Positions 2,553 through 21,252 of a stretch of 64,000 nt of DNA are shown here, one piece after another. Below the pieces are notes generated by a model. That model saw only the letters and a program-made list of their open reading frames with translations. It was not told where the DNA came from and ran no database searches. A program made the translations under genes and the position numbers. This DNA comes from an aff. Roholtiella sp. LEGE 12411 (GTDB taxonomy: Bacteria; Cyanobacteriota; Cyanobacteriia; Cyanobacteriales; Nostocaceae). Each line of letters opens with the position of its first letter. Position 1 is the stretch's first letter. The stretch lies in NCBI RefSeq assembly GCF_015206995.1, contig NZ_JADEXR010000001.1, positions 62,001 through 126,000 of the forward strand, written 5' to 3'.

Positions 2553-3482
2553 GGAGTATCTCCTAAAAAACTGTAACTGAAAAAAAGATTGGTAATTTTA
2601 GAATACTATTAGAACTGAAAATTGTAGAGCCAATTTTGGCAGCCAAATCAGGAAATTAATTAAAAAAGATGCATGTAATTGCATAGTTACCTTACTATTC
2701 ACCAATGTCCGGTAAGACCGATTTTGCTCTTTTGTATAAATTATTTCAATTCCTTGGGCGATCGCATAGAGCAAAATCCTTTGGGAGTCCGTGAGGATTA
2801 GGGCAGGTGCAACCTGCTTTAGAGCAAGAAGCTGGCGGAATCGGTTAAAGACGTAGTTCAACGCATCATTGAAAGGACAAAAGTGGCAAATACTTACCAC
2901 ATAGGCGAAGTTTGCCAAATCCTAGCTAAGGAGAATCCCGAGGTGAGGGACAAGGGTAGGTGTTGAGCAATTGTCAGGGCAGTGAGTGATTTTAGTTGTA
3001 ACGTGAGAATGTGGAATGGAGAACATGCTGTTGCGTTGCAGTTGCAGTACCTGAAATCATTTAACTACCTGCCCCTTCATAAGGTCATGAGCGGATTTAG
3101 CATAGATAACAGCATCATATAAAGCTCGTATGAGCTTTATAATTACTTAAGCAGAGATGTTCTCGCCTTAAACATAAAATTAACTTATGTTTTATTCAAC
3201 ATACGCAAATATCACAAAACTAGGACTTTACACAAGAATCAATTGCGTTTTTTTCAAAAAAATAATGCGTTTTTTTCAAAAAAAAACTAAACTTCACAAG
3301 ATATCGAATTTTTGATAAATAAACAAAATACATCTCTGTGAAAAATAAACTTTATATTATATATTTTTTTGGATATATTAAGACTTGACATAAAGTTTCA
3401 TATTTAATATTTGGTAAATAGCTTTACATGACAATGGAAATAGTGATATATAGTCAAGTGTGTTAATTAAGCACAAACAACA
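2553..3482. other. Gene-poor, AT-rich stretch with decayed coding DNA
   Basis: No intact gene. On the + strand about 2840-2970 reads in one frame as KLAESVKDVVQRII...HIGEVCQILAKENPEV, interrupted upstream by two stops, which looks like a decayed gene end that I do not recognise. The minus-strand open frame over 2598-2918 is its shadow. A direct repeat of GCGTTTTTTTCAAAAAA sits at about 3245 and 3267. From 3230 to 3480 the DNA is very AT-rich and could hold promoters. Confidence 0.4.
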
Positions 3483-3578
3483 TTGAAAAAACCATTTAAA
3501 CGAGGTCTTTTCTCCGATTTTGGTCAATTATTACTGATGAAATTCATAGGTAGTTGTTTGAATTTGACAAATTCATGA
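3483..3578 (+). pseudogene. Possible decayed lasso-peptide precursor leader (31 codons)
   Basis: A TTG-started frame reads LKKPFKRGLFSDFGQL then ends in TGA overlapping the next ATG (ATGA). The spacing F-x2-G-x-F-x3-G mimics the YxxPxLxxxG leader motif of lasso precursors, with Y, P and L replaced. The tail has no Asp or Glu to close a macrolactam ring, so if this was a precursor it is dead. The case rests mainly on the neighbouring B2 fragment; a chance frame is possible. Confidence 0.3.
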
Positions 3579-3685
3579 AACAGTTGCGTAAGTTTTTCAG
3601 CCTGACTGGGAGCGATAACCTCATTTTGGTTAAGTCTGTGTTTCTACTAGCAGCAATCAGGGTAGAACTTATATCTCACCACTGA
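3575..3685 (+). pseudogene. N-terminal fragment of lasso-peptide B2 protein
   Basis: 36 codons, MKQLRKFFSLTGSDNLILVK then SVFLLAAIRVEL, then TGA. This matches the start of lasso peptide biosynthesis B2 (leader peptidase) proteins: a short basic helix R-K-F-x-L-x3-x-L-L-L-K followed by a hydrophobic LLxxxRxxL segment. Full proteins are about 140-150 aa with a catalytic Cys-His-Asp domain, absent here. The break is followed within 30 bp by transposase remains, so an insertion or deletion probably removed the rest. Its start overlaps the preceding small frame by 4 nt, as in a coupled operon. Confidence 0.55.
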
Positions 3686-3713
3686 ATGCAGTAAACTCGG
3701 ACGCTAGAACCAA

Positions 3714-3824
3714 AATCCTTCAATATTGAGGGAAGAAGCATTAAAAGCACATCATACTCGTAGCCGTGAGCGTTTGATGGCACTGTATGAGATATATAAT
3801 GGCAGACTAGCTAATCTAGGATGA
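3714..3824 (+). pseudogene. Transposase fragment (helix-turn-helix part, IS630-like)
   Basis: One frame reads ILREEALKAHHTRSRERLMA then LYEIYNGR before a stop. The block HTRSRERLMALYEI is the start of a helix-turn-helix segment common in cyanobacterial IS630-type transposases. The catalytic DDE part is missing. The match stops at about 3807, just where the regulatory block shared with 13792 begins, so this marks the left edge of the biosynthetic cluster. Confidence 0.55.
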
Positions 3825-3873
3825 TTGCATTCACGTTTTACAGCCTAATTACACAAAGGCTTTGATTATTTTC
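3808..3873 (+). promoter_or_regulatory. Shared upstream block, copy 1 (before the cluster's first gene)
   Basis: It contains TAGCTAAT, then GATTGCATT (3823-3831), then AGGCTTTGATTATTTTC (3857-3873), ending 33 bp before the ATG at 3907. The same three words in the same order lie at 13792-13846 before another gene of the cluster. The distance between the last two words differs by 11 bp, about one helical turn. A shared promoter, operator or leader is the simplest reading; the function is inferred only from position. Confidence 0.5.
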
Positions 3874-3906
3874 GGAAATGTCTATTAATTATAGAAAGGA
3901 ATTCTG

Positions 3907-4422
3907 ATGAATTTACAAACTCAATCCATATTAGAACAAATTCAAAAGTCTTTTGGTTTCGTTCCAAACGCACTCCAGGCTATGTCTGCGGAACCAGCAC
4001 TGTTAAAAGCTTATGTAGACACTGAGGCACTGTTGCCACTTTGTAGTCTAAATATTATCGAGCAGGAACTAGTTATGTTAACTGTTTCTGTTGTAAATGA
4101 ATGTGGATATTGCGTTGCTGCTCATAGCTTAGCATCCAAAATCCTCAGTTCAGAACAAGTCGATTCTTTAAGGAATCGTCAGGTATTGAGCGACTTGAAA
4201 TTACAGACATTAAGAGAAACTACTGAGCAAATAGTACTTCAGCAAGGACGCTTGTCTGAACAGCAACTATCGAAGTTTCTCAATGTTGGATATAGTCGAT
4301 CACAACTATTAGCCATTGTGCTAATAGTTGCTTTTAAGACCATAGCTAACTACAGTAATCACATCAATGCTCCGGAGCTAGATCATGTATTTATGAGCAA
4401 AAGATGGGAAATAACATCATGA
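3907..4422 (+). CDS. Carboxymuconolactone decarboxylase (AhpD-like) family protein
   Basis: 171 aa. Residues about 55-100 hold the family signature: a Glu-rich helix (IIEQELVMLTVSVVNECGYCVAAHS) with the CxxC pair C-G-Y-C followed by A-A-H, the redox and proton-relay site of AhpD-like peroxidases. The fold is all helical and cytoplasmic. Such proteins either reduce peroxides or handle lactones and disulfides. As first gene of the cluster it may protect against, or process, a thiol- or peroxide-reactive intermediate (inference). Translation is probably coupled to the next gene through an ATGA overlap. AAAGGA lies about 8 nt upstream of the ATG. Confidence 0.8.
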   Translation: MNLQTQSILEQIQKSFGFVPNALQAMSAEPALLKAYVDTEALLPLCSLNIIEQELVMLTVSVVNECGYCVAAHSLASKILSSEQVDSLRNRQVLSDLKLQTLRETTEQIVLQQGRLSEQQLSKFLNVGYSRSQLLAIVLIVAFKTIANYSNHINAPELDHVFMSKRWEITS

Positions 4423-5540
4423 TGCTGTGGCAAGCTAGGATATTAGGCTGCGGCGCTACATTTGTGGGTGTTGGTGTTACTCGTATGGCTTTTACACCCC
4501 TAGCAGCTATGGCGGTTAGTCAAGGATTATGGACAGCTAACGCACCGAGTAAAATTGGGGCATTCCTATTAATAGGTTATGCGTTTGGTGCCGTTATGAC
4601 ACCTTGGTTACTCAAAAAGCTAGGAACAACCTTATTATTAAAAGTAAGCTTGTTTTTTATCAGCACAGGCTTAATTTTTGAACTTGGGTACAAAACCGTT
4701 GAATCATGGCTTGTAACTCGGAGTATTCTTGGTTTTTGTGGCGCATGTTTAATGGTTTGTGGGCCTAGTTTAGCATTAAAATTTGGCACTCCTAGCGAAC
4801 GCAATCAAACTCAATTGTGGACATTCATGGGTATAGGTTTAGGCGCTTGCGTTTCTGCCAGCTTACTAGAGTTTCGTGCAGGATTAATAGCTATGCTTGT
4901 GCCAATTGTGTTATTCTGCCTATTATTTTTCGCATTAAGTCTGCTATGGTTAAAATCACCATTAAACACAGAGACAACTTATAGAATATTTAGTGTACTG
5001 CCTCCTAAAACCCTAATTATCGCTTACGCATTAGATGCAATTGCCTATATTCCCGCAACAGTTTACTTAAGCGATTATGTCACTAATGAACTTGGTTTGC
5101 ACATAGGAAACATCTTGTGGCAACTATTTGGTTTAGGTGCAATAATCGGCCCTTGGATTGCAACTGCATTATCAAAAAAAATCGGTTCGTCTGCTGCATT
5201 AAATCTCATCTATGTCTTCAAGACTTTTGCGTTATTAATACTTGCCTGGAGTCAACAAGTTGAGTTATTAGCCATAGGTTCAATGATCACGGGTGTTTGC
5301 GTTCCGGCAATAGTTCTCTTAACCGCCTCAGAAATTCGCCGAACTCTTGAAGATAAGTATTTTTCATCTGCTTGGTCATTAGCCACCTTAGTTTTTGCAT
5401 CTGCACAAGCTCTAGGTGCTATGGTTATGGCACTCTGTTTTCAATTAATTAAAACCTATCAACCGATATTTTTAGGAGGAGCATTGTTATTATTTCCTGC
5501 CTGTTACCTTACCTTGCAATCTTCAAGAGGTAAATTATGA
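4419..5540 (+). CDS. MFS transporter, YbfB/YjiJ-like, probable product exporter
   Basis: About 373 aa with roughly 12 hydrophobic segments. The start GCGATFVGVGVTRMAFTPLAAMAV matches the N-terminus of the YbfB/YjiJ branch of the major facilitator superfamily, with the loop PWLLKKLGTTLLLK after helix 2. I prefer the ATG at 4419 (ATGA overlap with the previous stop and GGGA upstream); an ATG at 4404 in the same frame is the alternative. It sits in a three-gene overlapping run, CMD-MFS-GST, so co-expression is near certain. Export of the cluster's product or of toxic intermediates is the likely role, by context only. Confidence 0.8.
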   Translation: MMLWQARILGCGATFVGVGVTRMAFTPLAAMAVSQGLWTANAPSKIGAFLLIGYAFGAVMTPWLLKKLGTTLLLKVSLFFISTGLIFELGYKTVESWLVTRSILGFCGACLMVCGPSLALKFGTPSERNQTQLWTFMGIGLGACVSASLLEFRAGLIAMLVPIVLFCLLFFALSLLWLKSPLNTETTYRIFSVLPPKTLIIAYALDAIAYIPATVYLSDYVTNELGLHIGNILWQLFGLGAIIGPWIATALSKKIGSSAALNLIYVFKTFALLILAWSQQVELLAIGSMITGVCVPAIVLLTASEIRRTLEDKYFSSAWSLATLVFASAQALGAMVMALCFQLIKTYQPIFLGGALLLFPACYLTLQSSRGKL

Positions 5541-6130
5541 AATTATATTATTCAACGACTTCACCGTATTCGCGCAAGGTTTTGATATTATGCCATGAAT
5601 TAGAAATAGCAGATATGGTTGAACTTATCCAAGTTAACCCATTTCAAGACTCTTCATCTTTGCGCGAAGTTAATCCTTTATCGAAAGTACCCACATTTGT
5701 CTTAGATAATGGTGAGCCTTTATATGACAGTTCAGTGATTGCAGAATATCTTCAACGTCTTGTAAACAAACCAACATTATCATTGGTAGATTTTGTTTCT
5801 CAACAGCGTTTACATGCATTGGCGGATGGAATAATGGATGCAGCATTTTCTTTGGTAATGGAACATCGTCGCCCACAGGAACAGCGTTCTCCTTCTTGGC
5901 AGCAGCGCTGGGAAGGTGCTATATCGCGTAGTATCACAGAATTTGAACAAAAATACATTGATCATGCACAACAATGGCATATTGGCAGCATTGCGATCGC
6001 ATGTGCGTTGGATTACCTTACTTTTCGCATCCCAGAAAATGACTGGAAACAGCAGTATCCGAAGACAAAAACTTGGTTTCAAGACCAAATCACTAAGTCA
6101 ATCATGATCAAAACTGATCCAAGATTGTAA
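5537..6130 (+). CDS. Glutathione S-transferase family protein
   Basis: 197 aa. Residues 1-80 form the thioredoxin-like GST N-domain: MKLYYSTTSPYSRKVLILCHELE at the start with the S-P-Y-S-R-K catalytic region, the cis-Pro motif in NPLSKVPTF, and Y-D-S-S-V-I-A-E-Y-L for glutathione gamma-glutamyl binding. The helical C-domain follows. It begins inside the stop of the MFS gene (ATGA). In biosynthetic clusters GSTs conjugate or isomerise an intermediate, or detoxify it; which applies here cannot be seen. Confidence 0.85.
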   Translation: MKLYYSTTSPYSRKVLILCHELEIADMVELIQVNPFQDSSSLREVNPLSKVPTFVLDNGEPLYDSSVIAEYLQRLVNKPTLSLVDFVSQQRLHALADGIMDAAFSLVMEHRRPQEQRSPSWQQRWEGAISRSITEFEQKYIDHAQQWHIGSIAIACALDYLTFRIPENDWKQQYPKTKTWFQDQITKSIMIKTDPRL

Positions 6131-6291
6131 ATAAATCACAGCAGATTGCAGGTAATTGAGGTACAAATTTTAAGCACAAAGCCATATATCAACAGAGTTT
6201 ATTCCCTATTCCCTGCTGTATATTCAAGGACACTTTCATTGCACCGACTTATTTTTTTGAAGGATATATCTTCTTCAAAGTAGAAAATATT

Positions 6292-7815
6292 ATGACACAA
6301 CGAATAATCGCTTCTCTATTATTGCAAGCAGCAGAAAATTGGCCAAACCGAGTTTATTTAGATGGGGAACGCTCCTATACATATACAGAAGCGATAATTT
6401 TTGTCTATAAATTAGCGAAAAAATTAGAATCCCTCGGTATCAAGCGTTGGGATCGAGTCCTGATTTTTGCACAAAACAGAGTTGAAATATTATTAACCTT
6501 ATTTGCTGCCAATATAGTTGGCGCAATCGTAACTATTGTCCATGAAGCCAGTACTGATAACACACTAAAAAAAATTTGCAGCGATCTGGAACCGAAAGTG
6601 GTGTTTTTAGATAATACAACTATGCCACAGTCTGCATCTTTAACAAGCGACTACAAATTTGACATTGCAGATATTGTTGACTCGGATAACGATACCATAG
6701 ATAATGTTTTAAAATATCTTGATAATATTGCCCTAAGATCAGGAACTATTGATAGTGATCCGGCATTAATTATTTACACATCTGGATCAACTGGCTCTCC
6801 CCGTGGAGTAGTACTCACACAAGATAATATACTTTTTGTGGTTGAGAAAATCCAGGCGCGATTGTCCTATTCTCTAAACGATTCTATTAGTTTATTTCTG
6901 CCTTTATCCTTTGATTATGGACTTTATCAAGCTTTTTTAGCTGCACAGGTTGGTGCTTGTCTTGTTGTAAGTAAATCTGATTTTGCCGGGCCGATGTTGG
7001 TTAGTACATTACGTCAAAGAAGCATAAGTGTACTTCCAGGCGTACCCAATCTTTTTGAATCTTTGCTGAGATTGTTAGAGCGACGCAAAGAAATTTTACC
7101 TGATATTCGGATTGTTACTAACACAGGCGCTCATCTAACTCAGCAGCAGATTTTACGCTTACAAAACACTCTGCCAAATGCGTTGATCTATTCAATGTAT
7201 GGGCTAACAGAATGTAAGCGCGTTTCAATTCTCACTCCAGAAGAAGCCGAAAAGCATCAAGGTTCTGTAGGACGAGCGTTAGATAATACTGATGCTTTGA
7301 TTGTCAGCGATTCTGGGTGCATTCTACCACCAGGGGAAATCGGCGAACTGGTGGTGTGTGGACGACATGTTGCACTTGGATACTGGAAAGCACCTGTAGA
7401 AACCGAGACTCGTTTTAGAACTCATCCGTTAGGTATAGGGCGATCGCTTTATACGGGAGATGATTTCCAAATGGATCAAGAGGGATATCTATATTTTGTC
7501 GGTAGACGTGACGAACAAATAAAAAGACGTGGATTTCGTATGCACCCCCTAGAAATAGAAACAGCGTCTGTGGCTATTGACGGAGTTAAAAGTGCCGCAG
7601 TAGTACAATTAGGCGATCATTTAGCATTGTTTGTTGTTACCGACGAAGCCAACATTACTGAAAATACCATCCTCTCAAAACTCAGTAACCTACTTGAATC
7701 ATACAAAATTCCTGACTCTGTAGAGATATTAGAAAAACTACCAAATACATCCAACGGCAAAGTTGATCGTCGAGCCTTAGAACACCGAGCTAGTAATAAG
7801 TTAATCTGCCTTTGA
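6292..7815 (+). CDS. Stand-alone adenylate-forming enzyme (amino-acid:carrier-protein ligase candidate)
   Basis: 507 aa, class I adenylate-forming fold. The P-loop LIIYTSGSTGSPRGV is at about residue 160, YGLTECKR at about 305, YTGDD at about 385, KRRGFRMHPLEIE near 410, and the C-terminal catalytic Lys in TSNGKVDRRAL. Aligned by eye to the GrsA specificity pocket it reads D-Y-Y-P-T-T-M-R-V; the Arg at the 330 position would suit an acidic substrate. It resembles the ligases that accompany a PLP decarboxylase and an ACP in exosortase-A loci. With the next two genes it forms a load-and-decarboxylate trio: it would activate an amino diacid and put it on the 9258 ACP. No carrier domain of its own. 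Confidence 0.8.
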   Translation: MTQRIIASLLLQAAENWPNRVYLDGERSYTYTEAIIFVYKLAKKLESLGIKRWDRVLIFAQNRVEILLTLFAANIVGAIVTIVHEASTDNTLKKICSDLEPKVVFLDNTTMPQSASLTSDYKFDIADIVDSDNDTIDNVLKYLDNIALRSGTIDSDPALIIYTSGSTGSPRGVVLTQDNILFVVEKIQARLSYSLNDSISLFLPLSFDYGLYQAFLAAQVGACLVVSKSDFAGPMLVSTLRQRSISVLPGVPNLFESLLRLLERRKEILPDIRIVTNTGAHLTQQQILRLQNTLPNALIYSMYGLTECKRVSILTPEEAEKHQGSVGRALDNTDALIVSDSGCILPPGEIGELVVCGRHVALGYWKAPVETETRFRTHPLGIGRSLYTGDDFQMDQEGYLYFVGRRDEQIKRRGFRMHPLEIETASVAIDGVKSAAVVQLGDHLALFVVTDEANITENTILSKLSNLLESYKIPDSVEILEKLPNTSNGKVDRRALEHRASNKLICL

Positions 7816-7878
7816 GTAGCAATAACGACATTTCTATTTTCTGGAATTTTTTTCTGTAATTTAATCATAATCGCACCA

Positions 7879-9156
7879 ATGCAAGACACTTTCGGTAATT
7901 GGCGTTCACTTGTTGAAGAATTTGGTTCACCTCTTTATGTATACGATCTAGACATTGTTGAGCAACGGATTCAAGAGCTAAAGCAGGTTTTGCCGGCTAA
8001 CTCAAAACTGTTTTATTCACTGAAAGCTAATCCTTTACCAGCGATCGCTAACGCAGCTGCAACCGCAGGTGCTAATCTAGAAGTATCTTCAGTCAATGAA
8101 CTAAAAGTTGCCTGTAGTTTAAATTTTCCAACGGAGAAAATACTTTACACTGGGCCTGGAAAAACCAATGCTGAAATTCAGACAGCAATTGAAGCAGGTG
8201 TAAATACTTTTTCAGTGGAATCATGGGCAGACCTTGCTTGTATCGAAAACAATGCCCAAAAATATGAGCAAAAAATCCGTTTATTGTTAAGGGTGAATCC
8301 TGTTACTCCCTTGCAAGGTGGGCTAGCTATGAGTGGCGCACCTACACAGTTTGGTTTTGAAGAAAGTGTTCTTCTTGATGGTTCAGAAAAACTCAATCAA
8401 CTGAGTTCTTGGGTTGAGCTTGTTGGCTATCATATTTATTATGGAACACAGCTTGATAGTGAAGATACAATCGTAAATGCAGTATCTATAGCTATTGATT
8501 GTGTTGAGAGACTGACAAGCAAACTGGGATTTATCCCTCAAATTCTTGACCTTGGTGGAGGTTTCCCTTGGCCGTTTGCTAATCAAAATCAAAGTGTATC
8601 ACTGTGCAATATGCGAGACCGTTTGGAAAAACTTTTATCTCAACGTCAGCATAGTGCCGCAGCTGAGATATGGTTTGAATCAGGGCGTTATATTACTGCT
8701 TCGAGTGGTACTTTGATTGCTACTGTTCTTGATATTAAAGAGGCAAAAAATAATTCTCGTTTCGTAGTTTTAGATACTGGAATTAATCACTTAGGAGGAA
8801 TGTCGGGACTAAGACGAATCCCGCGTGGTTATATTTCCATAAACAATATTTCGGCTGAAAAAGATTCTATCGAAACCGACACATTGAAGCATGAGCGACT
8901 TTCTGTTGTTGGGCCATTATGCAGTCCTCTAGATTGTTTAACCTCAAATACAGATATCTCATTTTCGGTTAATATCGGTGACATTGTTGCCATCCCTAAT
9001 GTTGGTGCTTATGGACTCACAGCAAGTTTAGTCGCTTTTTTAAGCCGTCCTGCACCAATTGAAATTGCCTTGCGTGGCGGAAAAGTCGTTGAACTGTATA
9101 CGCTAAGGACTGGGCATGAACGCATCACAATGCAAAAAAAAGAATCAATCAAATAA
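7879..9156 (+). CDS. PLP-dependent decarboxylase, DapDC/ODC fold (type III), probably acting on an ACP-bound amino acid
   Basis: 425 aa. The N-terminal alanine-racemase barrel has the PLP lysine in YSLKANPL (K49), HIYYGTQL for the HxGSQ-type motif, and the glycine loop LDLGGGFPWPF. The C-terminal barrel has ESGRYI and GPLCSPLDCL with the catalytic Cys at about 348. This is the diaminopimelate/ornithine decarboxylase fold, and the GPLCxPLD form is the type seen in BtrK (glutamyl-ACP decarboxylase of butirosin synthesis) and in exosortase-associated homologues. With a ligase before it and an ACP after it, decarboxylation of a carrier-bound amino diacid is more likely than free diaminopimelate. 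The gap from the ligase gene is 63 bp. Confidence 0.8.
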   Translation: MQDTFGNWRSLVEEFGSPLYVYDLDIVEQRIQELKQVLPANSKLFYSLKANPLPAIANAAATAGANLEVSSVNELKVACSLNFPTEKILYTGPGKTNAEIQTAIEAGVNTFSVESWADLACIENNAQKYEQKIRLLLRVNPVTPLQGGLAMSGAPTQFGFEESVLLDGSEKLNQLSSWVELVGYHIYYGTQLDSEDTIVNAVSIAIDCVERLTSKLGFIPQILDLGGGFPWPFANQNQSVSLCNMRDRLEKLLSQRQHSAAAEIWFESGRYITASSGTLIATVLDIKEAKNNSRFVVLDTGINHLGGMSGLRRIPRGYISINNISAEKDSIETDTLKHERLSVVGPLCSPLDCLTSNTDISFSVNIGDIVAIPNVGAYGLTASLVAFLSRPAPIEIALRGGKVVELYTLRTGHERITMQKKESIK

Positions 9157-9257
9157 CAGGGGTTACAAAATTTCTGTCTGATTTCTGAATAATATTTCAG
9201 ATCAAACGGGCTTTCCATATCAGAATAGTTTCAAAAATTAAATCGCAGTACTAGAGC

Positions 9258-9509
9258 ATGAATACTACAATTGAAAGACTGAAAGTATGTATGGTTGAAC
9301 ATTTAAAGTTTGTTCAATCTGTCGAGAATATTAATGATGATGCTGAATTAACCCGTTTAGGGCTAGATTCAATGGCTGCAATCAATTTGATGATAGATAT
9401 TGAAGATGAGTTTGGCATCACCTTTCCAGATGCTTTACTAACTCCCGAAACCTTCCGAACATCTATGACATTGAGTTCTGCTATTGAAGAAATCATGGGA
9501 GGTGTTTAG
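9258..9509 (+). CDS. Discrete acyl carrier protein
   Basis: 83 aa, acidic, with the phosphopantetheine site LGLDSMAA (Ser38) and the usual following helix NLMIDIEDEFGITFPD. It is a free-standing carrier, not the fatty-acid AcpP, judging by sequence and place. It probably holds the amino acid activated by the 6292 product, is the substrate of the 7879 decarboxylase, and donates to the Cy domain of the NRPS. It needs a phosphopantetheinyl transferase, which is not encoded nearby. Confidence 0.85.
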   Translation: MNTTIERLKVCMVEHLKFVQSVENINDDAELTRLGLDSMAAINLMIDIEDEFGITFPDALLTPETFRTSMTLSSAIEEIMGGV

Positions 9510-9535
9510 AAACTAGTGAATTATTTTACAACTCT

Positions 9536-9609
9536 ATCTCCCAACCTCTCTTCTACAAGGTAAGAATATTTTAAAATCGAATTATTTCGTAGAAAGGGGT
9601 TGGTGAGAT
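9536..9609. repeat. Long imperfect hairpin between the ACP and NRPS genes
   Basis: Left arm 9536-9556 (ATCTCCCAACCTC...TTCTAC) pairs with right arm 9589-9609 (GTAGAAAGGGG...GAGAT) around a 32-bp AT-rich loop. It resembles dispersed hairpin repeats common between Nostoc genes. It may stabilise or end the upstream mRNA and so set the ratio of ACP to NRPS; that is inference. Confidence 0.6.
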
Positions 9610-9680
9610 TAAGTTTGTAAACAAACAATTTATATATATTTATCACAATTAAAGCATCCTCTTAATAGGGGAATATTTCA

Positions 9681-12600
9681 ATGATTGAAACCCAATTAAC
9701 ACGAGATTTGACAAACAATAAGCTATCGAATTGTATGCAGCTTTCGCCGTTGCAACGTGGTTATTTTGTTGGAGAAAGACCTGATTTTGATCTTCATGTT
9801 CATCCGCATATTTATTTAGAATTTGATCTTGAAGATTGTGATATTCAAGCACTTACAATAGCGTTAAATAGACTCATCAGTAGACATTGCATGTTGCGTG
9901 CAGTGGTTTTGCCAACGGCTGAAGTTTCTGTGGTGAAAGAAAGGATTAACTATGATATTTTAGAGCGAGATTTACGCCAACTGGATGAAATCAAAGCTTT
10001 CGAGCAACTTGTACAAATTAGAGAAAATCTTTATCGTTTAAATATTAATGTAGACTCGCCACCCAATATTGAAGTACAAATAACTCGGATGAATAATTTC
10101 ACCCGAGTTCATATCAACCTCGATTTATTATTTTTAGATGGTACTAGTGTTCGGACTGTGCTGCAAGAACTCTCCGAGATATATTTACATCCAGAATATA
10201 TCTTATCTGAGAAACCTTTTGATCTCTCTCGTTATCAGGCACACATACACCAAAAATATTTATCAGAACGATATCAACGGGCTAAAAAATATTGGAGTGA
10301 ACGTCTTAAAACTTTACCCAGTAGTCCTACTTTACCTTTAGCATCTTACTCACCGGTTGTCCGTCGATCGCACCTGGTTCGTCGGAAACATATACTTTCT
10401 GCAACTCAATGGAAAGTTCTAACAAAACAAGCCCAATCCCAACAAATTAACCCAACTACCCTGTTATTAACTGCTTTTAGCTTGATAGTAGCTTATTGGT
10501 CAAAAAACCAACATTTTTTGTTAACCATGATGATTCAGAATCGCGATCGCGATTTTGATAATCTCTGCGGAGTTGTTGGCAACTTTGCAAGTACCATCTT
10601 AATTGAAGTGAATTTTGGCGAATCTCTGCCCTTTGCACAACAAGCAGTTGAGATCCACCGTCAAATATTCCGCGATCTTGCTCACTCAATGGTTTGTGGT
10701 TTAGATATTCTTCAAGAGCGGAATCGTCATGAGGGTTCAGCGTTTCATGCTGCAAGTCCAGTGGCATTTGTTAGTATGCTGAACGAACATGACAATAAAA
10801 TTACACCAGACTTATTCCAACTTGAAAACGATAACATGGTTTTCAGTGGTCTTGAAACGCCTCAAGTTCTTTTAGACCATCAAGCTATTAGTAGACCTGA
10901 TGGTGGTGTTTCTTTGATTTGGGACACTATGGATTTAGCGTTTGCAGAGGGAGTCGTTGACGATATGTTCAACGCATATATATCCTTCTTATCCAAATTG
11001 ACCGAAGACGAAAGCGTGTGGAATATATCTTATTTTGATTTGAGGTCAAAAGAAGAAAAAATACAGCATTCAGAATATAACCAACCAAAGGCTTCTTTGT
11101 CAGATAGATGTTTACATGAATATCTTTATAGCCAAGCAAAGCTATTAGCAAATAAACCTTTGCTCATCGACTCTCGCAGAACAATAAGTTATGGGGAAGC
11201 AACTTATATTTCTAACCGGATCGCCTGGACATTACGTCAGCGATACAATGTCAAACCCAACGAATTAATTGCAGTATATGCCTCAAAAGGTTGGGAACAA
11301 GTTATTGCAGTCCAGTCTATTATCGCCGCCGGTGCTGCTTATGTACCTATAGATCCTGCTTTTCCCGAAAATCGAAAGTTAAATATATTAGAGCGTTGTG
11401 GGTGCAAAATAGTATTAACGTCTGAGGCTCATTTAAATGATAAATGTATCAATAGCCTGGAAAAAATCGCAGTCGATCTTACTGATAATCTGGTTATAGA
11501 ATCTGAAAATTTACCCCGCATTCAGTCTTCAAAGGATCTAGCCTATGTAATTTTTACCTCTGGTTCAACTGGTGAATCAAAAGGAGTCATGCTTAATCAT
11601 CTGGGAGTAGTTAATACTATAGATGATATAAATCATCGTTTTAATATTGACTCCAATGATGTAATATTTGGTATTTCGGAATTGAATTTTGATTTATCAG
11701 TATATGATATATTTGGAAGTATCGCTGCTGGTGCGACACTTGTTATTCCTCCACCAGGGGCAAATCTGGAACCTGCCTTATGTGCAAGATTATGTGCAAA
11801 ACATAATGTAACTGTTTGGAATTCAGTTCCGGCATTAGTTCAGCTACTAGTAGAGAATTTTGAAATCAATCAGCGATCGCACAAACTGTCGTTTAGGCTG
11901 TTTATGATGAGCGGCGATTGGATTCCTGTTAAATTACCGGAAAAAATTAAGCGGTTGTTTTCCGCAAAGATAGTCAGTCTTGGTGGTGCAACCGAAGGCT
12001 CTATTTGGTCAATATATTATGACATCAACGAAATAGACGCAAACTGGAAAAGCATACCTTATGGATATCCCCTAACTAATCAAGAGTTTTATGTACTTGA
12101 TCAGAAGATGCAACCGCGCCCTAATAATGTTCCAGGGGAATTGTACATAGGTGGTGTTGGCGTAGCAGAAGGATACTGGTTGGATTCCCAAAAAACAGCA
12201 CAATCTTACGTATTTCATCCAGTTTTGAAAAAGCGAATTTATCGAACTGGAGACTGGGGAGTACGGCGCAAAATCGGTTATATAGACTTTCTAGGGAGGG
12301 AAGATGGACAAGTAAAGGTGCGAGGGCATCGAATTGAGCTAGGGGAGATAGAGAGCATCTTACAGCAGCATCCTAGTGTGGCAAATGCGATCGCCAAAGT
12401 TATCGGATATCAGACACAAGACGCTTACTTAGCCGCATATATCGTTCCCAAAGATGGAGCAACACCCAGCTTGCAAGAGCTACATCAACACGTTGCTGCA
12501 TTCTTACCTGAGTACATGGTTCCGGCAAAATTTATCTTTCTCGAACAACTCCCCCTTGGTGCAACAGGAAAGATTGATCGCAAAGCATTACCGATACCAA

Positions 12601-13694
12601 GTGATATTAAAAAAGCTCAAGTTAGTAGTCGTTCTCTAACTAAAACAGAATCTACAATGGCCAAATTATGGTCAGAAATTCTGGAAATGGAGACACCTGT
12701 TGCCGAAGATGATTTTTTCAACATAGGTGGAAACTCTTTTGCAGCAGCACGCCTAACCATTGCTATTAATAATACCTTTGGAATCGAGATTCCAGTAACC
12801 GCACTTCTGCAACATCCAACATTAGAAAAACTTTCAAAATTAATCGATGAACAATATTACAATAATTCATCAAATCGGTGGTCATCTCTAATTTCAATTG
12901 CCGGTGAAGAACCTAGTCCAAAAACATTTTGGTTTCACCCATCTGGTGGAGGAGTTTTGTGTTACAGAGATATGGGGCAACTCTTGTCACCACATTTACA
13001 TCTTTTTGGCGTTCAGGCACAGCCTGTAAGTCAACAAAATGTGGTTAATTCAATACCTGAAATGCTTGATGTCTATCTAAATGAAATACGTGCTATCCAA
13101 CCATCAGGGCCATATCATTTAGGTGGATGGTCAATGGGTGGAGTTATTGCTTACGTTGCCGCTCAACACTTAATTCAGCAGGGTATTCAGGTAGAAAGTC
13201 TAGTTTTAATTGATAGTCCTGCCCCTTTACGCCGCAAGATTCCCGAATTCGCAGAAATTGTCTCTTGGTTTATATCCGATCTCGCTGAAGTAGAACAAAC
13301 GTTAAAACTTAGTTGCATCCAACAAAAAGAATCATCTAACGATCTACTATTAGCAGCATTACAAGAGGCGCAAAAAAGGGGTTTGATATCATTTGAAAAT
13401 ATGGAGGATTTACGCCCGATTTTTAATGTCTTCCACTCTAATATCCACGCCTTGTATAACTATCAAGCATCACCAATGAAAGAAGATGTTTCCTGCTTGG
13501 TTGTGATGGCAACCCAAAATATGCAAGAGCGTGTCGCTAGTGATTCTATGCAAATATGGCGTTCCCTACTACCAAAAACAACTTCATTTCGTGAAATTGA
13601 GGGAAATCATTATTCACTTCTAAAATATCCGTTAGTAAGTGAAGTGACACACCTAATTTTAGAACATTTGAAAACAAAGGTAAAAGTAGGCTAA
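9681..13694 (+). CDS. Single-module NRPS: Cy-A-T-TE, cysteine predicted
   Basis: 1337 aa. Residues about 15-440 form a heterocyclisation-type condensation domain: LSPLQRGYFVGE, and DLLFLDGTS (about 147), which is the DxxxxDxxS of Cy domains rather than HHxxxDG. The A domain (about 465-985) has YVIFTSGSTGESKG and FDLSVYDIFG; its pocket read against GrsA is D-L-Y-N-M-S-L-I-W, one change from the cysteine code of Cy-A modules. The T domain has FFNIGGNSF (Ser about 1018). The thioesterase has GWSMGG (about 1148) and a GNH histidine near the end. It should make a peptide-like bond from a carrier-bound donor to Cys, cyclise it to a thiazoline, and release the acid. Start ATG has AGGGG 10 nt upstream. 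Confidence 0.9.
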   Translation: MIETQLTRDLTNNKLSNCMQLSPLQRGYFVGERPDFDLHVHPHIYLEFDLEDCDIQALTIALNRLISRHCMLRAVVLPTAEVSVVKERINYDILERDLRQLDEIKAFEQLVQIRENLYRLNINVDSPPNIEVQITRMNNFTRVHINLDLLFLDGTSVRTVLQELSEIYLHPEYILSEKPFDLSRYQAHIHQKYLSERYQRAKKYWSERLKTLPSSPTLPLASYSPVVRRSHLVRRKHILSATQWKVLTKQAQSQQINPTTLLLTAFSLIVAYWSKNQHFLLTMMIQNRDRDFDNLCGVVGNFASTILIEVNFGESLPFAQQAVEIHRQIFRDLAHSMVCGLDILQERNRHEGSAFHAASPVAFVSMLNEHDNKITPDLFQLENDNMVFSGLETPQVLLDHQAISRPDGGVSLIWDTMDLAFAEGVVDDMFNAYISFLSKLTEDESVWNISYFDLRSKEEKIQHSEYNQPKASLSDRCLHEYLYSQAKLLANKPLLIDSRRTISYGEATYISNRIAWTLRQRYNVKPNELIAVYASKGWEQVIAVQSIIAAGAAYVPIDPAFPENRKLNILERCGCKIVLTSEAHLNDKCINSLEKIAVDLTDNLVIESENLPRIQSSKDLAYVIFTSGSTGESKGVMLNHLGVVNTIDDINHRFNIDSNDVIFGISELNFDLSVYDIFGSIAAGATLVIPPPGANLEPALCARLCAKHNVTVWNSVPALVQLLVENFEINQRSHKLSFRLFMMSGDWIPVKLPEKIKRLFSAKIVSLGGATEGSIWSIYYDINEIDANWKSIPYGYPLTNQEFYVLDQKMQPRPNNVPGELYIGGVGVAEGYWLDSQKTAQSYVFHPVLKKRIYRTGDWGVRRKIGYIDFLGREDGQVKVRGHRIELGEIESILQQHPSVANAIAKVIGYQTQDAYLAAYIVPKDGATPSLQELHQHVAAFLPEYMVPAKFIFLEQLPLGATGKIDRKALPIPSDIKKAQVSSRSLTKTESTMAKLWSEILEMETPVAEDDFFNIGGNSFAAARLTIAINNTFGIEIPVTALLQHPTLEKLSKLIDEQYYNNSSNRWSSLISIAGEEPSPKTFWFHPSGGGVLCYRDMGQLLSPHLHLFGVQAQPVSQQNVVNSIPEMLDVYLNEIRAIQPSGPYHLGGWSMGGVIAYVAAQHLIQQGIQVESLVLIDSPAPLRRKIPEFAEIVSWFISDLAEVEQTLKLSCIQQKESSNDLLLAALQEAQKRGLISFENMEDLRPIFNVFHSNIHALYNYQASPMKEDVSCLVVMATQNMQERVASDSMQIWRSLLPKTTSFREIEGNHYSLLKYPLVSEVTHLILEHLKTKVKVG

Positions 13695-13791
13695 TTACTT
13701 AAATTTACAGTTTTGTGGTAAATAAATTAGCCCTGATTTTTGCCTGATTAGCAACGATAAATATCTAAAAGCCTGATTTGATTGGACATAT

Positions 13792-13846
13792 TAGCTAATT
13801 TATGAGGATTGCATTTACCTCTTAAATCCAGGCTTTGATTATTTTC
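13792..13846 (+). promoter_or_regulatory. Shared upstream block, copy 2
   Basis: It holds TAGCTAAT, GATTGCATT (13807-13815) and AGGCTTTGATTATTTTC (13830-13846), in the same order as at 3808-3873, 26 bp before the ATG at 13873. It suggests that the last two cluster genes have their own start of transcription under the same control as the first operon. Confidence 0.5.
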
Positions 13847-13872
13847 ACCAGATATCTAATAAGTGGGACATT

Positions 13873-14697
13873 ATGAAGCCAAAAAAAATTAAAACTAATC
13901 TGCTAGTAGCATTCTTTGTATTCAGCATTGTATTGACTACATCCATAGCTGGATTTGCGTATCCATATATGGGAAACAAGCAACCGAATTACGGCTTATA
14001 TAGTCCTCCCATAGCTCACACAAATTACTTAGTACTGATGGCCAATGGGGTTTACGATCCGAAAGACCCATATTTCACGCCTCCTGACTTCAACTTTTTT
14101 TCGCATAAAGTTATGGGTTGGAACGATGCACAGATAGCGCAATATCGGCAAAAAGCTGTAAGTTTCTTTGCAAAACGCTTTGGCATTAATCCTGATAGTG
14201 CCGAATATACTGGGCGCGTCATCATGGTTCCTTTCATGCTAGATCCTCGATGGGAGTACCGCGTATACAATAAATCAAACGCTTATGTGCCGCCGCAAGG
14301 ATGGGTTGCACGCGATGGGGGATTTCAATTAATTGCGATCGCTCCTGATGGTGTTGAGCTTGGTGGAGAATTTAGTGGTAGACACGCACCCAAAGGTGCG
14401 ATCGCTGCCTTTGGCGAATTCAATATTCAGGTAGCTCCTCAAACTTATAAGCAACCCAAGGAAATTATCATTCATTATGAATCGCGGCAACCTGTCCTAC
14501 AAAATAGTGGGTTTCCTTTAGAAAGAAATGGCAATGGAACATTAATAGCCCCCTTTGATGTATATCATCCAGAATGGGGTCATGGATGGGCATTTGCTCA
14601 TATCACCGATGTCCTACAACCGGATGGTAAGTTGCAAACAAATAACCGCAACATTATGACATTCCCAGCCGGTGCAGCATTTCCCAACACAAATTAG
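13873..14697 (+). CDS. Secreted protein of unknown function inside the biosynthetic cluster
   Basis: 274 aa. The N-terminus is basic (MKPKKIK) followed by a hydrophobic stretch LLVAFFVFSIVLTTSIAGFA, a signal peptide or anchor. The mature part is rich in aromatic residues and Pro, with no repeats and few Cys. Motifs visible: DPRWEYRVYN, APDGVELGGEFSGRHAPKGA, and HPEWGHGWAFAHITDV. I do not recognise the family. It begins a second transcription unit preceded by the shared block, and is followed by the AurF-like gene. A role outside the cytoplasm, such as binding or hydrolysing the product, is a guess. Confidence 0.7.
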   Translation: MKPKKIKTNLLVAFFVFSIVLTTSIAGFAYPYMGNKQPNYGLYSPPIAHTNYLVLMANGVYDPKDPYFTPPDFNFFSHKVMGWNDAQIAQYRQKAVSFFAKRFGINPDSAEYTGRVIMVPFMLDPRWEYRVYNKSNAYVPPQGWVARDGGFQLIAIAPDGVELGGEFSGRHAPKGAIAAFGEFNIQVAPQTYKQPKEIIIHYESRQPVLQNSGFPLERNGNGTLIAPFDVYHPEWGHGWAFAHITDVLQPDGKLQTNNRNIMTFPAGAAFPNTN

Positions 14698-14769
14698 TAA
14701 GACAACTTTCGACTCTTCTAGATCAGAATTTCAGAGCAACAATTAAGCTTTTCTTAAGGAACAAAAATT

Positions 14770-15681
14770 GTGAACACATCAACTTTTATCAAAGATACAT
14801 CCGAGTTAGAAAAAACTCTCTTGACACTCATTAATCTAACGAACTCTGATACTTACAACCCATTCAAGGAAATTGTTTGGCCTGATAGCATAGAGAATCA
14901 CAAATTATGGATGTCATCAAGCCTGATGTCAATTCATGGAACTCGCTTTGAACAAGAGCTTTCTGAGGAACAAATAATTGAAATCAGCAAGTGGGAATTT
15001 ATCAATTTTTGCAGTTTGAATGTAACTGGCATCCGTGAATTATTAATAGAAATGACGAGTCGGTTGCATACACCAGGATTTGAAGTATTATCAGAATACT
15101 TGCATTATTTAATTGCAGAAGAGAATGAACACATGTGGTATTTCTCTAAGTTCTGTCTGCAATATGCTGGTAAAATTTACCCCGATAGAGCTTTGGCAGT
15201 GGCTAGTTTTCCAGAAGCAGATATCGCCAGCTTTATGGTCTTCGTTCGGGTTCTGATATTTGAAGAAATTGTCGATTTTTATAATCGAAAAATGGGTCAG
15301 GACAAAACGTTACCGAATTTTATCCAAGAGATAAACTGGCTTCACCACCTAGACGAAGGCAGACACATTAAATATGGTCGCCAGTATGTTAATTTAGCCT
15401 ATCAGGAGTTGCTAAATAAATATCCCAAACAACGAATTTTAGAAATGGAGTCTACTATTAAAGGTTTTATGCAACTTTCTGTGCAAAAGCTTTATCGACG
15501 GGAGATATTTGTTGATGCCGGACTTAATGAGCCAGGTAAGATGCGAAAAGAGTTACTCTCGCATCCAGTCCGTCAGCAATTCAACAAAAAATTAATAGCA
15601 AGCACTGCAAAATTTTTGACCCAAGTAGGCTTATTTTCAGATTCGAGTGTGTTTCCTGAACCTGAATCAGTTGTTAATTAG
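14770..15681 (+). CDS. AurF-like diiron oxygenase (possible amine N-oxygenase)
   Basis: 303 aa from a GTG start with AAGGA 9 nt upstream. It is a four-helix diiron protein of the AurF/CmlI type: E118-x2-H121 in AEENEHMWYF, a Glu in FEEIVDF (165/166), and H192-x3-E196-x2-H199 in HHLDEGRH, all the expected iron ligands being present, plus an early helix Glu in WEFINFCSLNVTGIREL. AurF and CmlI oxidise aryl amines to nitro groups; related enzymes hydroxylate carbon. In this cluster the free amine made by the decarboxylase is a plausible target. Last gene of the cluster; MITE DNA follows. Confidence 0.8.
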   Translation: MNTSTFIKDTSELEKTLLTLINLTNSDTYNPFKEIVWPDSIENHKLWMSSSLMSIHGTRFEQELSEEQIIEISKWEFINFCSLNVTGIRELLIEMTSRLHTPGFEVLSEYLHYLIAEENEHMWYFSKFCLQYAGKIYPDRALAVASFPEADIASFMVFVRVLIFEEIVDFYNRKMGQDKTLPNFIQEINWLHHLDEGRHIKYGRQYVNLAYQELLNKYPKQRILEMESTIKGFMQLSVQKLYRREIFVDAGLNEPGKMRKELLSHPVRQQFNKKLIASTAKFLTQVGLFSDSSVFPEPESVVN

Positions 15682-15691
15682 CTATTTTTAC

Positions 15692-15980
15692 TATAGCAAT
15701 CCTAAACATTTGTGAGATAGAAAATCACTTAAGAGGTTGTTTGAAAAGTCTAATTTATTACTCACCGGGCAACTGGAAGTCGCGGCTACACAATCAAAAC
15801 CCACCGACCTGGGTTAAAAACCCTTGATTTTCATTAGTCCACCTCCGTGGACTTATCTGCGAGACGCTGTTCGCGTTCGTTTGTGTAGTAGCGAATTCTA
15901 TTCGCCTAATACTTTTCAAACATCCTCTAAAGGGTTGAAAAAACTTACTTGTAATCTCATACTTGAATTCGGATTGCTAT
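15692..15980. repeat. Outer inverted-repeat element (TATAGCAATCC ends), split by a MITE
   Basis: The left arm 15692-15717 (TATAGCAATCC...GAGAT) and the right arm 15955-15980 (ATCTC...GGATTGCTAT) are inverted partners. This is a common Nostoc-type repeat end. The element at 15732-15928 lies between the arms, so one repeat has been inserted in another. Confidence 0.6.
15732..15928. mobile_element. MITE-like element, AGAGGTTGTTTGAAAAGT ends (copy 1)
   Basis: Terminal inverted repeats are AGAGGTTGTTTGAAAAGT at 15732-15749 and ACTTTTCAAACATCCTCT at 15911-15928 (17 of 18 match). About 197 bp, no coding capacity. The inside carries several short inverted repeats (for example GTCCAC/GTGGAC near 15837). 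A full IS with these ends would be needed in trans. Related copies are at 17125 and 29250, and a weak one at about 18851-18994. Confidence 0.75.
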
Positions 15981-16233: not shown

Positions 16234-17082
16234 ATGTCAAATCCCAAAAACAAGCGTTTTCTATCCCTGACTCGTCGCCATGTCCTCAAGTTACTCGGCA
16301 TCTCTGCAAGCTTTGGCGCAGGGGTTATGCTGCCAAGTAGCCTTCGTGCTGCAACCCCGCTAAAGGGAGATGAGCAAATATCTACCTCTATTAAATCCAT
16401 TGAGAAAGAATCTGTTAATAAGGAAAGTAAAAAAAAGGTAAATGTTGGAGTGCTGGCTCGTTTTGAAGCAAAACCAGGTAAGGAAGCAGAACTTGAGAGT
16501 CTTTTGAGAAACGGTCTTGCGTTGGTAGAAAAAGAACCTGCGACAACCCAGTGGTATGCATTCAAAATCGGGCCTACGACCTATGGGATTTTCGACGTTT
16601 TCCCAGACCAGGCAGGACGGCAAGCGCATTTTGACGCTGAATTTACGGCTTTACTATTTTCCAAACTGCCTGAATTACAGGCATTAGAGCCAAAAATTGA
16701 GCTTATAGATGTGGTGGCAACAACCCTTGGGAGAAAACGCGTTACTAAGGAGCAGAAAAAAAGGGTAAATGTTGGAGTATCGGCTCGTTTTGAAGCAAAA
16801 CCAGGTAAGGAAGCAGAACTTGAGAGTCTTTTGAGAAACGGCCTTGAGCTGGTAAAAAAAGAACCCGCGACGACGGAGTGGTTTGCAATCAAAATCGGAC
16901 CTACGACCTATGGGATTTTCGACGTTTTCCCAGACCAGGCAGGACGGCAAGCACATTTTGACGGGGAATTTACAACTTTGCTATTTTCAAAACTGCCTGA
17001 ATTACAGGCGTTAGAGCCAAAAATTGAGCTTATAGATGTAGTAGCAACAACGATAAATAAGAATATCCCAATTTGGGATTGA
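16234..17082 (+). CDS. Tandem double ABM-domain protein with Tat-like signal
   Basis: 282 aa. Residues about 13-42 (TRRHVLKLLGISASFGAG) form a twin-arginine-like signal, so export is likely. Two antibiotic-biosynthesis-monooxygenase (dimeric alpha/beta barrel) domains follow, about residues 68-165 and 177-274, nearly identical: both contain RFEAKPGKEAELESLLRN, KIGPTTYGIFDVFPDQAGRQ and LFSKLPELQALEPKIEL. The DNA repeat period is 327 bp. Single ABM domains dimerise to act as cofactor-free oxygenases or haem-degrading enzymes; a fused pair could fold as one internal dimer. No haem ligand can be assigned by eye. It stands alone between two MITEs. Confidence 0.75.
   Translation: MSNPKNKRFLSLTRRHVLKLLGISASFGAGVMLPSSLRAATPLKGDEQISTSIKSIEKESVNKESKKKVNVGVLARFEAKPGKEAELESLLRNGLALVEKEPATTQWYAFKIGPTTYGIFDVFPDQAGRQAHFDAEFTALLFSKLPELQALEPKIELIDVVATTLGRKRVTKEQKKRVNVGVSARFEAKPGKEAELESLLRNGLELVKKEPATTEWFAIKIGPTTYGIFDVFPDQAGRQAHFDGEFTTLLFSKLPELQALEPKIELIDVVATTINKNIPIWD
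16435..17059 (+). repeat. Two near-identical 327-bp direct repeats inside the ABM gene
   Basis: AATGTTGGAG begins a unit at 16441 and again at 16768, period 327 bp (109 codons). The units differ at few positions, several silent, showing a recent in-frame duplication or ongoing homogenisation. Confidence 0.85.
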
Positions 17083-17124
17083 GTTGGGTCGAGGAAGAAT
17101 ATTACCTTCCCGCCCCTTAGATTT

Positions 17125-17248: not shown

Positions 17249-17350
17249 AGAACAACACTTACCCTCAACCTATCACTTTAACTAACCACTGTTTTTATTA
17301 AACTCATCCATCAATGAGAAAAACTTAGCAAAATTGAGTTTCACTTAATT

Positions 17351-19182: not shown

Positions 19183-21252
19183 ATGCTAAACCAACTTAAT
19201 CAAAACCCTTCAGTTGAACTAATTCTCGATCCCATACTTCAAGGAGTTACAGTTAACGATCCAACACCTACTATTTCAGTGTTGTGGGATAAAGTTGCTC
19301 AACAAGCTGTAAGTAATGCCATTGTCGGCCCCACCATAGCCGATCGCGTCTATTCTATGGTGCATACGAGTATGTTTGATGCTTGGGCTGCTTATGACCC
19401 AACCGCAATTGCTACTCAACTTAAAGATCAACTACAACGTCCCCAAGTCGAAAATACAGAAGCTAATAAAAAAGAAGCGATGAGCTTTGCGGCTTATCGT
19501 ACTTTGAAAGATTTATTTCCTAGCCAGGCGCTCATTTTTGACGAATTGATGGGCAAACTTGGCTTCGACCCTAACAATACAACCACTGACAGCACTAAAG
19601 CTGCTGGAATTGGTAATGTCTCTGCCGAAGCTTTATTAAAATTTCGCCATGAAGATGGTTCTAACCAACTCGGAACCAATCCTAAGGGTACACTTGGTGT
19701 TCCCTACTCTGATATCACTGGCTACAAGCCCGTTAACTCTCCAGGGAATGTGATCAACATTGAGCGTTGGACACCAGAAACAATACCCATTAATGCCCCC
19801 CCCGGACAAGGGAGAGTTCAACGGGTTCTAGGGGCCAACTGGAGTGGTGTAACCTCCTTCAGTTTGGAAAGCAACAACCAATTTCGACCGTCCGCACCCC
19901 AACCCTTTCTTTTAGTCGATGGACAAGTAAATCTGCAAGCAAAGACAATTACTCTCAAAAATGGGCAAGTACTTCCCATCACTAAAGATTTAATCGGAAC
20001 AGTCATCAATCCCAAATTTATTGCCCAAGCAGAAAAAGTCGTTAATGTCAGCGCTAATCTCACCGACAAGCAAAAGCTGATTGCAGAATTTTGGGAAGAT
20101 CAAGTTGGCAGTTCCTTCCCCGCCGGTTCCTGGATGACCTTTGGGCAATACGTGTCGGCGCGGGATAATCATACTCTTGATGATGATGCTAAACTCTTCT
20201 TTACTTTAGGAAATGGTGTCTTTGATGCAGGAGTTGCTACTTGGGAAGCTAAGAGATTCTACGACTATGCTCGTCCAGTGCGGGTAATCCGCTCTCTAGG
20301 CGAACTAGGTCTAATTGGGGAATTCAACAAAGAACTAGGAGGTTATGCCATCCAGGCTTGGAAGCCAGGACAAGGAACTCAGACAATTTTGGCAACCGAC
20401 TTTGTGGCCTATCAACTCCCTGGTAGCAATCCTTCGCCACCTTTTCAAGAATATACTTCCGGTCACAGTGGATTTAGTGGTGCAGGTTCGACAATTCTTG
20501 AGCTATTCACAGATTCAGATTACTTTGGTGGTAACGTTACCTTTCAACCTGGGTTATCTCGCTTTGAACCTGGTATCACACCTGAAAAAGCCGTTACCTT
20601 GGAGTGGGATACGTTTTCCGAGGCCGCAATTGAGGCTGGTGTCTCCCGCATTTACGGTGGGATTCATTTTGATGAAGGAAATCTGAATGGTCAGATTGTC
20701 GGACAAAAAGTTGGTTTGAGTGTTTGGGAGCAAGCACAGTTTTTTATTGAAGGTGGTAAGGAGCAGAAAATCCTTTTTGGCACTAAGGGTTCAGATAAAC
20801 TGGTTGGCACCGATGGTGATGAAAAGATTTATGCTCGTTCTGGTAATGACTCGGTTATTGCTGGCTTAGGCAACGATCAAATCTTTGGTGGTGATGGAGA
20901 TGACCGAATCTGGGGTGATGGTGGCGATGATATTCTCAGAGGTGGTCTAGGTAGCGATCGCATTTGGGGTGGTCGTGGCAATGATATTCTCAGAGGTGGT
21001 TTAGGTAGCGATCGCCTTGAGGGTGATAAGGGTCGTGATACCTTCGTCCTAGCTGCTGGTGAAGGTACTGACACGATTATTGACTTCCACGTTGGCAAGG
21101 ATCTCCTTGGTCTGGCTGATGGTCTAAAATTCGGTGAGTTATCTATCTATTCAAGGGGAAACCGAACGCTAATTGGGTTTGAAGACCAAACGCTAGCTAT
21201 CGTCAATGGAGTCAGAAATGACCTCACAAGTACAGATTTTATCGCAATGTGA
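19183..21252 (+). CDS. Vanadium haloperoxidase/PAP2-type enzyme with C-terminal RTX repeats
   Basis: 689 aa. The vanadate/phosphate pocket is complete: K-x6-RP in KRFYDYARP (about 355), SGHSGFSGAG (about 426), and RIYGGIHFDEG (about 488), the three motifs shared by vanadium-dependent haloperoxidases and PAP2 phosphatases. Residues about 535-625 are glycine/aspartate nonapeptides (GNDQIFGGDGDD, GGDDILRGGLGSD), which bind Ca2+ in RTX proteins, followed by a DTIIDF cap of the kind that ends RTX secretion domains. There is no N-terminal signal, so type I secretion through the RTX tail is likely. Halide oxidation or phosphatase activity cannot be told apart by eye. Confidence 0.85.
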   Translation: MLNQLNQNPSVELILDPILQGVTVNDPTPTISVLWDKVAQQAVSNAIVGPTIADRVYSMVHTSMFDAWAAYDPTAIATQLKDQLQRPQVENTEANKKEAMSFAAYRTLKDLFPSQALIFDELMGKLGFDPNNTTTDSTKAAGIGNVSAEALLKFRHEDGSNQLGTNPKGTLGVPYSDITGYKPVNSPGNVINIERWTPETIPINAPPGQGRVQRVLGANWSGVTSFSLESNNQFRPSAPQPFLLVDGQVNLQAKTITLKNGQVLPITKDLIGTVINPKFIAQAEKVVNVSANLTDKQKLIAEFWEDQVGSSFPAGSWMTFGQYVSARDNHTLDDDAKLFFTLGNGVFDAGVATWEAKRFYDYARPVRVIRSLGELGLIGEFNKELGGYAIQAWKPGQGTQTILATDFVAYQLPGSNPSPPFQEYTSGHSGFSGAGSTILELFTDSDYFGGNVTFQPGLSRFEPGITPEKAVTLEWDTFSEAAIEAGVSRIYGGIHFDEGNLNGQIVGQKVGLSVWEQAQFFIEGGKEQKILFGTKGSDKLVGTDGDEKIYARSGNDSVIAGLGNDQIFGGDGDDRIWGDGGDDILRGGLGSDRIWGGRGNDILRGGLGSDRLEGDKGRDTFVLAAGEGTDTIIDFHVGKDLLGLADGLKFGELSIYSRGNRTLIGFEDQTLAIVNGVRNDLTSTDFIAM

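Follow-up and report, generated by a model that had tools for sequence, protein, structure and literature searches.

A rare five-gene cyanobacterial cluster that may make a small N-oxidised thiazoline amino acid

The window, by which we mean the whole 64,000-nucleotide stretch of DNA analysed here (G000 contig C68, 62001-126000), carries a gene cluster (3907-15681) that, judged from its sequence, stands about an even chance of making a small N-oxidised thiazoline amino acid by means of a ligase, decarboxylase and acyl carrier protein (ACP) trio, a Cy-type NRPS and an AurF-family enzyme. The components are individually of known types, and the combination of these five genes as one pathway was not found described. 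A literature search with MIBiG outside its scope returned no matching published cluster, so the statement in the earlier note that no cluster with this gene set has been described holds for the literature searched, and no relevant literature was found on beta-alanine or aminoethyl-thiazoline starter units. Family assignments of the cluster ORFs were made with Pfam and NCBIfam, and every gene named in the earlier note is an intact plus-strand ORF within 3907-15681. That gene list stands as far as it goes; it left out the secreted protein between the NRPS and AurF genes. The genes of the cluster, and two possible accessory genes beyond it, are as follows.

3907..4422, + strand, CMD/AhpD-like peroxidase-related protein (CxxCxxxH motif; PF02627, E 2e-5)
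4404..5540, + strand, MFS exporter (MFS_4; PF06779, E 1.7e-28)
5537..6130, + strand, GST-like protein, accessory (GST_N_3, E 4e-17)
6292..7815, + strand, VinN-type AMP-forming ligase (best PDB match VinN 3wvn, E 1.2e-71)
7879..9156, + strand, BtrK/VinO-type PLP decarboxylase with a predicted aminodiacyl-ACP substrate (BtrK 2j66, E 2e-57)
9258..9509, + strand, free acyl carrier protein (PF00550, E 1.5e-9; GLDS site at residue 35)
9681..13694, + strand, one-module NRPS, Cy-A(Cys)-T-TE (Pfam domains Condensation-AMP-PP-TE; motifs; BmdB, E 1.4e-179)
13873..14697, + strand, secreted 274-aa protein, function unassigned, lineage-specific accessory
14770..15681, + strand, AurF-family ferritin-like diiron N-oxygenase (FDO; PF11583, E 9.6e-28)
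16234..17082, + strand, exported protein with two ABM-like repeats, possible accessory (PF03992, E 5.6e-8)
19183..21252, + strand, vanadium-haloperoxidase-like protein with C-terminal RTX repeats, possible accessory (DUF6851, E 2e-51)

In the proposed pathway, the ligase would adenylate the side-chain carboxylate of L-Asp (or, less probably, L-Glu) and load it onto the free ACP, and the PLP decarboxylase would strip the alpha-carboxyl group to give beta-alanyl-ACP (or GABA-ACP). The Cy domain would couple this acyl group to the Cys held on the NRPS, with cyclodehydration to follow, and the TE would free 2-(2-aminoethyl)thiazoline-4-carboxylate or a derivative. The AurF-family enzyme would take a primary amine, most likely carrier-bound, to the hydroxylamine, nitroso or nitro level, and the CMD and MFS proteins may serve in protection against the product or in its export. 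The gene set, the families, the pocket and ligand residues and the conserved unit are sequence-based; all of the reactions, their order, Asp over Glu, the oxidation level and monomeric release are what we infer.

On comparison with other cyanobacterial genomes, by tblastn with the window proteins, the five-gene core of ligase, decarboxylase, ACP, NRPS and AurF genes recurs in genome G429 and in an Okeania MAG (G600) at 64-74% identity, with the ligase at 67-71% and the NRPS at 64-66%; the source genome, G429 and Okeania represent three different cyanobacterial families. Because the core recurs in two other families, it is a real unit rather than a set of chance neighbours. The decarboxylase query against genome contigs returned one relative, an Okeania MAG, and the AurF-protein query returned the Okeania contig again together with G429. 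The five-gene cluster is a rare one: with AurF as the query, two draws of 386 and 391 genomes and two families of 62 and 22 (these sets overlap) yielded full clusters and close AurF relatives only in the cluster genomes named in this report. Core-gene dN/dS, for those comparisons in which it could be computed, was 0.10-0.22, and dS was close to saturation or past it. Trios of similar type without a Cy module were found on Streptomyces and Paenibacillus plasmids.

The G429 cluster also carries the CMD (65%) and MFS (66%, adjoining CMD) homologues, and the earlier note's inclusion of these two as cluster genes thus stands for two of the three clusters, the Okeania contig stopping just past the NRPS. 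The CMD protein matches TIGR01926 at E 2e-17, below the family cut-off. The GST, which had also been counted as a cluster gene, is present in the window and has no counterpart by tblastn in the G429 or Okeania loci, from which the secreted protein and the haloperoxidase-like gene are absent as well; judged by these loci, the GST and the secreted protein lie outside the core. In G429 we also observed a second AurF copy (L009:3842-4753), which differs from the first by 11 nucleotides across 912 bases and has an in-frame TAG at codon 227, and an RTX-repeat protein is encoded between the two copies.

The G+C fraction averages ∼0.38 over 2001-20000 of the window and ∼0.42 from 20001 to its end, which is consistent with horizontal acquisition of the former and no proof of one. 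A promoter scan gave 43 sites as compared to 42.4 in shuffled sequence, and the count of 12 terminator-like elements, against a shuffle mean of 8.7 (sd 2.9), was uninformative. Just upstream of the cluster, on the minus strand, lie genes for a haem-dependent oxidative N-demethylase-like protein and an MMADHC-like protein (223-1278 and 1399-1953). Two more NRPS genes, which encode 2455 and 1405 aa and show Cy-like matches, are located ∼21 kb ahead of the window start (L042, G000 C68:22001-41900).

The trio resembles VinN/VinO/VinL and FlvN of the vicenistatin and fluvirucin pathways, in which an AMP-forming ligase, a PLP decarboxylase and a free ACP likewise yield a beta-aminoacyl-ACP; those trios supply actinomycete macrolactam polyketide synthases, whereas the trio here would supply a Cy-type NRPS. 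The ligase is 31% identical to VinN, and in the alignment its D208, M302, K309 and R310 correspond to VinN D230, M323, K330 and R331, while VinN S299 is replaced by T278 and F231 by Y. Asp230, Lys330 and Arg331 equivalents are kept in all of the window, G429 and Okeania ligases. The VinN pocket residues were taken from papers that cite the VinN structure work: Asp230 is proposed for amino recognition and Ser299/Arg331 for carboxyl recognition (PMC7756342), and Met323 likely shapes Lys330/Arg331 (PMC9484153). Since the amino- and carboxylate-binding residues are kept, the ligase should take Asp or Glu and activate it at the side-chain carboxylate, in agreement with the amino-diacid loading predicted in the earlier note.

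The earlier note named Asp or Glu. The diacid is supported by the pocket, which with its S299T and F231Y changes does not discriminate between the two, and beta-alanyl-ACP is now favoured over GABA-ACP, with Glu less likely, because the published relatives AfcQ, VinN and FlvN take Asp-type substrates. In the excerpts of the papers concerned, L-Asp is activated by AfcQ and, once AfcP and AfcK take part, converted in vitro to carrier-bound beta-Ala (PMC12186527), VinN and VinO perform loading and decarboxylation with 3-methylAsp (PMC11284099), and BolO/BolN/BolC are proposed to supply an NRPS, deletion of bolN abolishing the product (PMC7756342). The AFC-BC11 and bolagladin systems thus resemble the cluster here in converting Asp to beta-Ala on a carrier for a peptide product; as described in these excerpts, their products are lipopeptides, unlike the one predicted here, and no mention is made of a Cy domain, a thiazoline derived from cysteine or an enzyme of the AurF type in their pathways.

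The decarboxylase, which is of fold type III and encoded next to the ligase, has the SLKAN lysine motif and the GPLCSPLD cysteine motif, and its nearest solved structure is BtrK, which bears out its assignment as a BtrK-type enzyme. In the BtrK/BtrI system BtrK acts on Glu-ACP, and butirosin is an aminoglycoside, unlike the thiazoline predicted here. Loading in butirosin biosynthesis is by BtrJ, a ligase of the ATP-grasp and not of the AMP-forming type. The phosphopantetheine GLDS site is found in the ACPs of all three clusters.

The NRPS retains its expected cysteine pocket: the A-domain code, read by eye from sequence against GrsA, is D-L-Y-N-M-S-L-I-W, and the pocket region aligns closely with that of bacillamide BmdB, the nearest solved NRPS. 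The NRPS has the Cy motifs DLLFLDGTS (at 148) and TPQVLLDHQ (at 393) and, in the TE, GWSMGG; the Cy and TE motifs are common to all three clusters, as would fit the Cys-specific Cy module with TE that the earlier note predicted. Like the cluster here, the bacillamide BmdA/BmdB/BmdC system has a Cy-A-T NRPS and a small thiazoline or thiazole product, and it has a decarboxylase and an oxidase. BmdB is larger than the NRPS here and, to our knowledge, a carrier-bound diacid is not the substrate of the bacillamide decarboxylase and the bacillamide oxidase is not a diiron enzyme. The bacillamide system is named in PMC8795117.

The FDO is covered by PF11583 over profile positions 3-282/282, and E76, E118, H121, E165, H192, E196 and H199 are invariant in 10 FDO homologues. 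The correspondence of these 3 His and 4 carboxylate ligands with those of AurF was drawn from motifs rather than from structure. All 10 homologues follow the EExxH + HxxDExxH pattern (D195 is E in 1/10), EENEH being the first motif in the FDO here, and the AurF second-sphere Asp135 is Glu here. The seventh His is described as characteristic of FDO N-oxygenases (PMC12154687) and CylC halogenases have QExxH (PMC12101540). By these motifs the FDO is an enzyme bearing the predicted seven-ligand N-oxygenase set and not the CylC halogenase set; a CylC-type halogenase was rejected, QExxH being missing and EExxH found instead. CylC and NocO, dimetal halogenases that are also cyanobacterial and AurF-like, act on ACP-bound substrates, in their case fatty acyl chains. 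An AlphaFold model of the FDO (pLDDT 51.9, 4 sequences) was too poor for a fold search, and the FDO profile gave weak ferritin-like matches alone against the PDB.

Seven distinct FDO relatives that are not part of such a cluster were compared by gene neighbourhood: those of Streptomyces NBC_00335 and NBC_01431, Tistrella, A. vitis, Azospirillum, G245 and G026. Six of the seven have a gene with a class II tRNA-synthetase core nearby, the matches in NBC_01431 and A. vitis being under the Pfam cut-off, and the Azospirillum relative belongs to an NRPS cluster that includes an adenylation gene and an ACP of its own. That the relatives mostly reside beside tRNA-synthetase-like probable carrier-protein ligases suggests, by analogy, a carrier-bound amine as the FDO substrate; the analogy is indirect because the cluster here has neither an aaRS-like ligase nor a nitronate monooxygenase. 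Together with the seven-ligand set, these neighbourhoods put the predicted amine oxidation on firmer ground than in the earlier note. G245 and G026 (L011, L049) share a set of KAS III-like, AurF-family oxygenase, tRNA-synthetase-like, reductase and ferritin-like genes with a FAAL-type ligase nearby. The FDO is also like HamC and PvfB of the fragin and valdiazen pathways, AurF-family enzymes that oxidise an amino acid on an NRPS carrier; for the AurF homologue HamC, the reported substrate of oxidation is valine tethered to an NRPS (PMC11659414). Unlike here, HamC and PvfB take valine to diazeniumdiolates or pyrazine N-oxides, and the reported ham operon lacks a PLP trio.

We tentatively propose, as a reading with somewhat less than even prospects, that beta-alanine (or GABA) is N-oxidised by the FDO while on its carrier, whether ahead of the heterocyclisation with Cys or following it, and ends as a thiazoline acid bearing an aliphatic hydroxylamine or nitro group. 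A rather unlikely alternative keeps the trio and the Cy module and has the AurF-family enzyme make a thiazole, hydroxylate carbon or act on the Cys nitrogen. FDOs are known for C-H oxygenation, desaturation, N-oxygenation and hydrazone oxidation (PMC12154687), and a separate thiazoline oxidase was not seen in the conserved core; the presence of the seventh N-oxygenase His, the absence of the CylC-type Gln and the preference of the relatives' neighbourhoods for an aminoacyl-carrier substrate argue against such other reactions.

We regard it as improbable that the TE acts iteratively and builds an oligomer or macrocycle, rather than a monomer, from beta-Ala-thiazoline units. Single-module NRPSs with a TE can iterate, as EntF does. 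EntF is among the NCBIfam matches of the NRPS, a beta-Ala-thiazoline unit holds both an amine and an activated carboxylate, and AfcQ adds Asp iteratively (PMC12186527), but N-oxidation of the amine would stop chain growth.

Remnants in two Nostoc-like genomes bear on whether the cluster is one pathway. The plasmid pANSO36A of Nostoc commune SO-36 (L017) and G750 (L040), which fell in the same genus group as SO-36 in the search, encode an NRPS without its first ∼317-324 residues, abutting a TniQ or transposase-like gene that differs between the two. Both keep the secreted protein (homologues of 98% and 91%, adjoining AurF), AurF and the haloperoxidase-like gene (90-94%, downstream of AurF) in open frames at 86-98% identity, and a direct search at E 1e-40 found no trio decarboxylase in either genome, G739 being taken as SO-36 because the matching place on its contig C2 shares its coordinates with the plasmid record. 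The haloperoxidase-like gene is thus linked to AurF in three genomes; its product matches VCPO_2nd (E 1.4e-10) and RTX and has the motifs KRFYDYARP, TSGH and SRIYGGIHF. The ABM-like gene has a 90% homologue downstream of AurF in G750 and no match in the SO-36 region. The secreted protein has no Pfam or NCBIfam match, and its AlphaFold model (pLDDT 33.1, 3 sequences) was too poor for a fold search; in G732 (L048:9918-10697), a 33% homologue has a FAAL/acyl-CoA dehydrogenase gene and a PKS gene as its neighbours. Since the truncation junctions of SO-36 and G750 differ by ∼15-20 bases and the window and SO-36 are nearest each other for A-T-TE, the two truncations may be independent.

Retention of the 3' part with a broken Cy domain and no decarboxylase means that this part may function alone. 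On that basis two functions could adjoin here, the 3' part (A-T-TE, secreted protein, AurF, ABM and haloperoxidase-like) using cysteine or some other substrate by itself and the trio having been added separately, which we consider highly improbable. The dN/dS among the window, SO-36 and G750 3' parts is low, 0.06-0.21, a value not assignable to the time after truncation, and the G429 and Okeania clusters have an intact Cy-A-T-TE gene between the trio and AurF, with neither the secreted protein nor the haloperoxidase-like gene present. We rejected as scarcely credible an exosortase-A-associated ligase/decarboxylase/ACP set outside any peptide pathway: TIGR03098 and TIGR03099 are the best NCBIfam families of the trio, but the scores are far under the cut-offs (319.8 against 592.4 bits and 264.7 against 478.5 bits) and the trio is constantly linked to the Cy-A-T-TE gene in three clusters.

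If the proposed pathway is true, five genes would join carrier-bound diacid decarboxylation, Cys heterocyclisation and diiron N-oxidation, with a beta-aminoacyl-ACP trio feeding an N-oxygenase and an NRPS of the heterocyclising type, and a diacid of primary metabolism would be turned into an N-oxidised thiazoline acid. The five-gene core is small enough for in vitro reconstitution. The pathway would give a rare cyanobacterial cluster a concrete, mass-predictable product, and it would show what substrate is taken by the branch of the AurF family whose genes, in several phyla, adjoin those of tRNA-synthetase-like probable carrier ligases.
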